A DNA stretch of 64,000 nucleotides from Cyanobium sp. CZS48M (GTDB lineage Bacteria > Cyanobacteriota > Cyanobacteriia > PCC-6307 > Cyanobiaceae): the NCBI GenBank assembly GCA_030373145.1, contig JAUCZK010000005.1:62001-126000 (forward strand), read 5' to 3'. This document shows positions 57,410 to 59,913 of the stretch, in pieces. Within the stretch, counting starts at the first letter, position 1; every line of letters starts with the position of its first letter. The notes under the pieces are model-generated. The model was not told the DNA's origin and did not search any database. It saw only the letters and a list, made by a program, of their open reading frames with translations. The position numbers were made by a program, and so were the translations under genes.

Positions 57410-58270
57410 TCAGGCCTTCCTGGGCAACGAATGACAAGGGGGTGTGAGTTGTCGCCGCAGCTTGCGCAGCACTCTCCGTTCGAGACTCTGCACCTGACCC
57501 TTGCTCATCCCCATCGAGCCGGCCACCTCGGCATAGGAACGGCTCTCCTCCGTGCCAAAGCGAAGCTGGAGTAGATGCTTTTCACGGCTATCGAGAGTTT
57601 GAACATGTCTAAGAAGCCATTGGTAGTCGTCCTGGGCAGTCAGACTCTTTTCGTCGCGGACTAGATCCATCAGGCAGGTATCCTCGCCCATGATTCCAAC
57701 CTTTTGGTCGAGTGATGTGGTGCGGCACTCCCGAACAGTGCGTAATGAATTCTCCACACGTCGTTCTGATTCTCCGAGATGAACCGCCATGGTGCGGGTG
57801 GAGAGAGCCTGATCGGAGGAGGCTTGCAGACGTTCAGCACGGAAGGCGAGATTGAGGATCGTCTTTGGAATCCTGATGCCGCTGCTACCTTCGCGCATGG
57901 CATGCGTGACCGCCTCGCGAATCCACCAGAAGGCATAGGTGGAAAATTTGTAGCCGCGGGCGGGATCGAACAGTTCAACAGCTCGGATCAATCCGAGATT
58001 GCCGGCCTGCAGAAGGTCAAGCATCTCTAGTTGGAGGCTGCCGATCCGGTCCTTATACTTGAGGCCGACCAGCGCCACCAGCCTGAGGTTGGCGGATACC
58101 ATGCGGTTCTTGGCCCTGGTGCCACCTTTGATCAGAGCCTTTGGTGGATTGGCATGGTTGAGCCACTCCTGCACGATTCCGGCCAGATGCAGTTCTTCAT
58201 CAGGAGCCAAAAGTGGAGTGCGTTTGATCAGTCTCAGATAGTTGTTGAGACTATCGCCGACAGCGTTCAT
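57410..58270 (-). CDS. RNA polymerase sigma-70 family factor (group 2-like)
   Basis: NLRLVALVGLKYKDRIGSLQLEMLDLLQAGNLGLIRAVELFDPARGYKFSTYAFWWIREAVTHAM; region 4 YAEVAGSMGMSKGQVQSLERRVLRKLR. Confidence 0.92.
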   Translation of the reverse strand: MNAVGDSLNNYLRLIKRTPLLAPDEELHLAGIVQEWLNHANPPKALIKGGTRAKNRMVSANLRLVALVGLKYKDRIGSLQLEMLDLLQAGNLGLIRAVELFDPARGYKFSTYAFWWIREAVTHAMREGSSGIRIPKTILNLAFRAERLQASSDQALSTRTMAVHLGESERRVENSLRTVRECRTTSLDQKVGIMGEDTCLMDLVRDEKSLTAQDDYQWLLRHVQTLDSREKHLLQLRFGTEESRSYAEVAGSMGMSKGQVQSLERRVLRKLRRQLTPPCHSLPRKA

Positions 58271-58659: not shown

Positions 58660-58935
58660 TTAGACTGAACCGCGCATCAAGACGTCCTCGACGTCTGTGG
58701 TGATTCCGCAATCATTGTAGGCCGATGCTGGCGGGAATCCCAGATCACGTAGCCATTCCACCAGCAGACGTCGATCCTGCATGGCCGAGGCCAAGGGCGA
58801 TAGAGCTGATGTGATGGCAGAGTCTGCCAGAATTTCTAGCTGTAGATCTTCCAGAGCGCAACAGATGACTCGATACAATGCATAGCTCTTGGGATCGAGT
58901 TCACCGAGTTGACTGCGTCGTCTCTCTGTCATCAT
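58660..58935 (-). CDS. hypothetical protein
   Basis: 91-aa ORF MMTERRRSQLGELDPKSYALYRVICCALEDLQLEI; no family recognised. Confidence 0.45.
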   Translation of the reverse strand: MMTERRRSQLGELDPKSYALYRVICCALEDLQLEILADSAITSALSPLASAMQDRRLLVEWLRDLGFPPASAYNDCGITTDVEDVLMRGSV

Positions 58936-59044: not shown

Positions 59045-59263
59045 TCAGGCCATGGTCACGAGATTGTCGGAAACAATGACTTTCATGGGAGTGGAGCAAA
59101 TCTTGTGGCCATATCTGGAAGGGGTGTAGTTGACCGCTGTACGGAGGGTTTCCAGGTGAACAGCCAGAATGTCCTCAACACTGGTTCCCAGGGCTTCTGC
59201 AACGCGCTGGATCACGTCGGCAGTCCCAGGAGAAAGACTGAGTTCAACGATTAATTTATCCAT
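59045..59263 (-). CDS. hypothetical small protein
   Basis: 72-aa ORF MDKLIVELSLSPGTADVIQRVAEALGTSVEDILAVHLETL. Confidence 0.5.
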   Translation of the reverse strand: MDKLIVELSLSPGTADVIQRVAEALGTSVEDILAVHLETLRTAVNYTPSRYGHKICSTPMKVIVSDNLVTMA

Positions 59264-59383
59264 GCCGTTTCCTTGCCTTCATCTTCAGGGTAGTCACAGA
59301 GATGTGGCAGGGATGCCGTCGATCTGCCGTCGATTTGTGGCTGATCTGCAGGACGCTCCGCTCAGGTATGCCGATTCTGGGCA

Positions 59384-59513
59384 CTGTTGCGTTTTGGCCA
59401 GGCGTGGATGAGGATTGCAGCAGAACTGCCGCAGATCTGATCCTGATCTGCGGCAGTGAGAGCCGCGCGCCTGGTCCATGCCTCGCCACTGGCATGCCGT
59501 CAAGACGCAACAG
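59384..59513. repeat. 130-nt nested inverted-repeat element (outer 15-bp arms, inner 12-bp hairpin at 59427-59457)
   Basis: ctgttgcgttttggc ... gtcaagacgcaacag (13 WC plus 2 G:U) enclosing ctgccgcagatc-tgatcct-gatctgcggcag (perfect). Confidence 0.65.
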
Positions 59514-59628
59514 CGTTAGGTTGAGACTGTAACGGGTCCGATCCCATTGATGCTCAATTGGCCCGCCCTGCTGGTCGCACGCAATGACCGATCGTTTCTT
59601 TTGATTGAGTCAGGGAGAGGAAGCGACC

Positions 59629-59913
59629 ATGAGAAGTGAACACCGGGTTTCCTCTGCTTTCCGGTCTCCCGTACGCATCAGCATCACCATCCCAGACAGC
59701 GTTCATGAGGGATTGGCTCAGATTGCCAACCAACAGGGGCGATCCCTCAGCAATCTGGCGGCCTATCTGCTGGAGTGGGCCCTCTCAGAAGAACAGAACT
59801 GTCAGTTGATTCTTCATCGGACTTCATCAGAGGAGCGCCCCTCACCTGCTGGACTGCCGATGCTGAACCAGCCGTCTTCTCCCGATCAGGACACCCAGTC
59901 TGATCGGGATTGA
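59629..59913 (+). CDS. ribbon-helix-helix (CopG/Arc-like) DNA-binding protein
   Basis: RSPVRISITIPDSVHEGLAQIANQQGRSLSNLAAYLLEWALSEE. Confidence 0.77.
   Translation: MRSEHRVSSAFRSPVRISITIPDSVHEGLAQIANQQGRSLSNLAAYLLEWALSEEQNCQLILHRTSSEERPSPAGLPMLNQPSSPDQDTQSDRD

Follow-up and report, generated by a model that had tools for sequence, protein, structure and literature searches.

The divergent gap and its surroundings

The DNA analysed here, referred to as the window, is a stretch of 64,000 nucleotides from Cyanobium sp. CZS48M. Within it, two small genes diverge from a gap of 365 bp which extends between the start of ORF72 on the minus strand (59263) and that of a gene for an RHH_5 protein on the plus strand (59629). 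Both starts had been assigned correctly in an earlier interpretation made from the letters of the window alone (the sequence-only reading). Around them lie ORF91, ileS, a gene for a sigma factor and one that resembles glycogen-debranching genes (the debranching-like gene). The features of the gap and the two genes that flank it are listed in Table 1.

Table 1. Features in and next to the divergent gap (window coordinates).
Feature	Position	Strand	Description
ORF72	59045..59263	-	conserved small protein with conserved C-terminal tail; pN/pS 0.27-0.40
Candidate -10 of ORF72	59287..59292	-	TACCCT (TACGCT or TATCCT in relatives); only minus-strand TAnnnT kept in the four genomes
Array A	59303..59357		five 11-bp-phased units: TGTGGCAGGGA / TGCCGTCGATC / TGCCGTCGATT / TGTGGCTGATC / TGCAGGACGCT
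Inter-array linker	59358..59398		includes the left outer arm (CCGCTCAGGTATGCCGATTCTGGGCACTGTTGCGTTTTGGC); 85-93% invariant in four genomes
Outer imperfect inverted repeat	59384..59513 (arms 59384-59398 and 59499-59513)		15-bp arms; encloses about 100 bp
Array B	59416..59459		four 11-bp-phased units: TGCAGCAGAAC / TGCCGCAGATC / TGATCCTGATC / TGCGGCAGTGA
Candidate -10 of RHH gene	59517..59522	+	TAGGTT, identical in four genomes; only plus-strand TAnnnT kept
RHH_5 gene (CopG/Arc-like)	59629..59913	+	94 aa from the ATG at 59629; Pfam RHH_5, E 6.2e-13

For the RHH_5 gene, pN/pS values of 0.30-0.50 were obtained. ORF72, as judged from sequence comparison, is under purifying selection; family searches with this protein, including Pfam and NCBIfam, yielded no significant match. 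In the model of ORF72, the N-terminus is extended and precedes two helices, predicted at 12-25 and 29-46. When the model was compared with Foldseek, the top ranks were occupied mostly by ribbon-helix-helix (RHH) proteins (TacA, CdbA, CopG and Arc), none of them at a significant level, and an ungapped alignment of ORF72 to the RHH core scored better than 300 of 300 shuffles. A profile-profile comparison between ORF72 and the RHH protein, for which few sequences were available, was not significant. ORF72 is a probable RHH protein.

Nine genomes of the same genus were inspected for the gap element, and it was present in four: the window's own genome and those of Synechococcus WH 5701 (G001; hereafter WH5701), CS-1329 (G008) and RedBA-s (G005). 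The same four carry both the RHH gene and ORF72, and the element occurs only there. In all of them, the element and the two genes are arranged in the same order beside ileS; the other five genomes have neither the RHH gene nor ORF72 at this place. ORF91 (58660-58935, minus strand, 91 aa), which follows ORF72 in the same direction, is likewise conserved in these four genomes, with 86-87% identity and pN/pS values of 0.16-0.30 when the window/RedBA-s pair is left aside. In the window, CS-1329 and RedBA-s, ORF91 and the debranching-like gene are separated by the sigma-70-family gene (57410-58270, minus strand), which is absent from that position in WH5701. A search of the whole family Cyanobiaceae with the DNA of the gap returned short matches only, nearly all of them within long open frames.

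Homologues of the RHH_5 protein reach up to 12 matches per genome in Cyanobiaceae, often with several within a few kb (e.g., G194:C2:469408-472396), which suggests that the family is expanding and possibly island-borne. The nearest homologues outside the genus (L074 and L075) share about 60% identity with the RHH protein of the window; both adjoin an apparent argJ-type gene, and neither is preceded by an 11-bp array of the kind described below. The regions preceding 26 further RHH homologues, inspected for phased arrays and long hairpins, did not reveal a common pattern.

Dyads, 11-bp arrays and candidate promoters

The outer arms of the dyad in the gap, CTGTTGCGTTTTGGC and GTCAAGACGCAACAG, are located exactly where the sequence-only reading had placed them. 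The inner hairpin is a perfect dyad, as had been described, yet its length and coordinates needed revision: instead of 12 bp it comprises 13 bp (59425-59437 and 59445-59457), with a loop of 7. A similar adjustment applies to the word GATCTGCNG, for which four copies had been reported. Those at 59321 and 59343 (both plus strand) are in place; the remaining two had been noted one base too high and are found at 59429-59437 (minus strand) and 59445 (plus strand). Although GATCTGCNG is enriched across the entire window (18 matches versus 6.2 expected; maximum of 14 in 100 shuffles), its four copies within 133 bp represent a real cluster. The spacing of 22 bp between the first two copies, recorded earlier without reference to a phase of 11 bp, corresponds to 2 x 11, and both clusters of the word fall inside 11-bp-phased arrays, designated A and B.

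The units of these arrays are degenerate (pairwise identity about 60%) and follow a consensus of roughly TGCnGnnGATC. The inner 13-bp hairpin is formed by unit 2 and unit 4 of array B. All-pairs identity of four consecutive 11-bp units served as array score, which was calculated for the window plus 20 other stretches of the genome (about 399 kb), resulting in 462,461 positions (about 463 kb) with a mean of 0.277 and a standard deviation of 0.059. Array B was the top place among all these positions (scored at 59414, 0.62), and array A came next (scored at 59306, 0.59), tied with one other site. Periods of 9, 10 and 12 gave nothing when tried at the two places. Moreover, 11 was the top lag in the autocorrelation of the gap in all four genomes (z of 4.5 in the window, 3.7 in both CS-1329 and WH5701, and 2.3 in RedBA-s). 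Arrays A and B resemble each other and are therefore unlikely to have arisen independently.

Array A is kept in the window and its three sister genomes (73% invariant). Array B is kept in CS-1329 (0.59) and WH5701 (0.58) and deleted in RedBA-s (0.36). Conservation of the arrays across the four genomes does not exceed that of the linker or the leader, and it is the linker that constitutes the most conserved block of the gap. The leader right before the RHH start (59586-59619; ACCGATCGTTTCTTTTGATTGAGTCAGGGAGAGG) is nearly invariant. The outer inverted repeat is present in the window, CS-1329 and RedBA-s. Its right arm, only 47% invariant, is replaced in WH5701, whereas the left arm is unchanged even in that genome.

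A scan of the gap for consensus sigma-70 promoters was negative. Of the TAnnnT hexamers within the 365 bp, just one on either strand is shared by all four genomes. Each of the two divergent genes thereby has its own, at the end of the gap where its promoter would be expected, about 24 bp from the start of ORF72 and about 107 bp from that of the RHH gene, respectively. We infer from their sequence and conservation that the two hexamers may represent the -10 regions of the two genes. If so, array A, which begins just upstream, would cover the -35 region of ORF72. Likewise, with TAGGTT as the -10 region of the RHH gene, the right outer arm would simply be spacer of the RHH promoter, array B would be positioned upstream of this promoter, and the hairpin would lie outside the RHH transcript.

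Possible functions of the gap

The sequence-only reading had offered three options for the gap: an iterated operator for the adjacent RHH protein, a structured non-coding RNA, and a non-autonomous mobile or REP-like element. The second, according to which the hairpin in region 59380-59520 is a small RNA or the 5' leader of the RHH mRNA, draws on a very stable fold in the window (-83 kcal/mol; z of -7.4 on the plus and -7.1 on the minus strand versus shuffles) and on one compensatory pair, a change from C-G to U-A in the inner stem of WH5701, which is the sole two-sided change. However, gene-oriented folds of the relatives are weak (z of -0.4 in CS-1329, -1.4 in WH5701 and -2.6 in RedBA-s), WH5701 lacks an intact right outer arm, and RedBA-s has lost the core of the inner hairpin. 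Covariation, which had been proposed as a check, was no better than in shuffles in a test that with four sequences is weak, though every sign agrees: the structure seen in the window has 87.2% paired cells across the four genomes as compared to 86.7% in shuffles, and the covariation term of RNAalifold is unfavourable. An Rfam scan with E values up to 1 returned nothing relevant, and no terminator-like T-run directly follows the hairpin. We therefore regard a structured RNA as improbable. The hairpin can be explained by the pseudo-palindromic nature of the units in combination with a lineage-specific outer inverted repeat.

Equally, the 15-bp imperfect terminal inverted repeat around about 100 bp might be taken for a MITE with CTGTTGCG ends. 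Such an element should occur in further copies or at variable insertion sites, but DNA similarity and the arm pattern revealed none elsewhere in the 2.77-Mb genome. In every carrier, the single copy occupies the same place between the same genes, and collections of phages and plasmids searched with the gap contained no match. In the non-carrier G006, the debranching gene and ileS are separated by 276 bp with a possible 3' remnant of the RHH gene, an arrangement more in keeping with a gene cassette that was lost entirely than with an unoccupied insertion site. A mobile origin is thus highly improbable. The sequence GGCACTGTTGC, which we take to resemble an IS6-like end, was dropped as a candidate because the element is present in a single copy.

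The first option fared best: 11-bp arrays are found in the sister genomes, they co-occur with the flanking genes, and there are no other copies. An iterated RHH operator implies an RHH gene next to it and regularly spaced repeats in a promoter region which are conserved in relatives. Both are found at this locus, where the RHH_5 gene is accompanied by the RHH-like ORF72. On this evidence, we consider it likely, though with appreciable doubt, that the gap serves both divergent genes as promoter region, acts as double-stranded DNA and contains an iterated operator of the RHH type. The operator is probably autoregulatory. According to this model, the pseudo-symmetric TGCnGnnGATC sites of the arrays would all face the same side of the helix, with array A next to the promoter of ORF72 and array B upstream of that of the RHH gene. 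Along the arrays, dimers of an RHH protein would line up side by side, as is known of other RHH proteins on iterated operators; the adjacent RHH_5 protein, ORF72 or both are the most likely candidates. Dimers at array A would block the -35 region of ORF72, and those at array B would act on the RHH promoter, possibly through a bridge between the two arrays, resulting in autoregulation. Which protein binds, the sign of the regulation and the looping are what we infer from this arrangement. Points that weigh against the model are the degeneracy of the units, the lack of an array upstream of the RHH homologues in L074 and L075, a conservation of the arrays no higher than that of linker and leader, and the non-significant profile comparison of ORF72 with the RHH protein.

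The situation in RedBA-s bears on this model. In that genome (L044 3389-3668), an extra C within a C run shifts the reading frame of the RHH gene and array B is deleted, while ORF72 and array A are still present; in this lineage, the module appears to be in decay. Concomitant loss of array B and of the RHH reading frame is expected if the two belong together, a coincidence that amounts to a single event in a draft genome.

The chief rival of the RHH operator is another regulator which prefers 11-bp direct repeats, such as a global regulator or a response regulator of the OmpR/PhoB type, that controls the ORF72/RHH pair. OmpR/PhoB-type regulators bind direct repeats at 11-bp spacing, and the phasing of the arrays would fit such a protein equally well; the position of array B upstream of a putative -35 region would suit an activator. 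Yet a global regulator should have many sites, and no similar copy or array was detected in the parts of the genome searched; also, the presence of the arrays tracks the two adjacent genes exactly. Among two-unit matches elsewhere, the closest of those checked lay inside long open frames without arrays (a genome-wide search with the two-unit pattern was uninformative because the pattern resembles common codon strings). Together with the lack of another copy, this favours a local regulator, and we regard control by another regulator as rather unlikely. The locus could also be a relic or an active toxin-antitoxin or partition module, with the arrays as antitoxin operator or centromere. Both kinds of module typically combine small RHH genes with iterated repeats (for partition, see PMC5016525), and ORF72 is followed by a 91-aa ORF of no recognised family. 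Nevertheless, no ATPase or toxin family was recognised nearby. No ParM-like gene as in type II partition is adjacent according to the list of ORFs and to Pfam, with which the sigma factor and the small ORFs were scanned. Pfam, NCBIfam and PADLOC assigned neither ORF72 nor ORF91 to a toxin family as expected of a type II toxin-antitoxin operon, though a toxin of a new type would have gone unnoticed. ORF91 has no match in Pfam, NCBIfam, PHROGs or PADLOC, and its fold is poorly predicted (pLDDT 57). Such a module is accordingly improbable.

With an RHH-type operator, an eye-catching palindrome receives a testable function, and the gap reads as an ordinary kind of switch between back-to-back genes for small DNA-binding proteins. 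The case further illustrates that a very strong fold of a single sequence (z about -7) can stem from pseudo-symmetric DNA-binding repeats and not from RNA. RHH_5 genes are numerous in picocyanobacteria and, as far as we found, mostly uncharacterised. A more elaborate version, in which a single split iteron operator is common to the two divergent RHH proteins and each regulates the other via a bridged A-B nucleoprotein complex, as a switch confined to a few Synechococcus genomes, is speculative and has a rather low probability; if true, the RHH pair would form a compact natural genetic switch in picocyanobacteria.

Comparison with known RHH operators

The kind of operator proposed here is already known, and this instance of it appears to be undescribed. 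Arc and CopG are small RHH proteins which bind repeated short sites in promoter regions. The same is true for Omega of plasmid pSM19035, a small RHH protein on repeated short promoter-region sites, the heptads (PMC5016525). The gap differs from the sites of these three proteins by its period of 11 instead of 7 and by its two separated arrays, and binding to it is presumed. A cyanobacterial precedent is TrcR (Anabaena all0854), an RHH autorepressor with a conserved motif over its own -10 region (PMC10272220). The likeness consists in a conserved motif that a cyanobacterial RHH regulator has in the promoter region of its own gene. The site of TrcR, however, is short (8-bp consensus), AT-rich and also present at other targets, whereas the gap contains two GC-rich, 11-bp-phased arrays of which no other copy was found and to which binding is postulated. 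Finally, in the ParR/parC systems of plasmids R1 and pSK41, one RHH dimer binds per array repeat around the promoter, and transcription is repressed (PMC5016525). The gap is chromosomal, has degenerate units, and is flanked by two divergent small regulators and not by a par operon with a ParM or ParA gene. What it shares with parC are direct repeats in tandem, each close to one turn of the helix, which in R1 form two blocks with promoter DNA between them.
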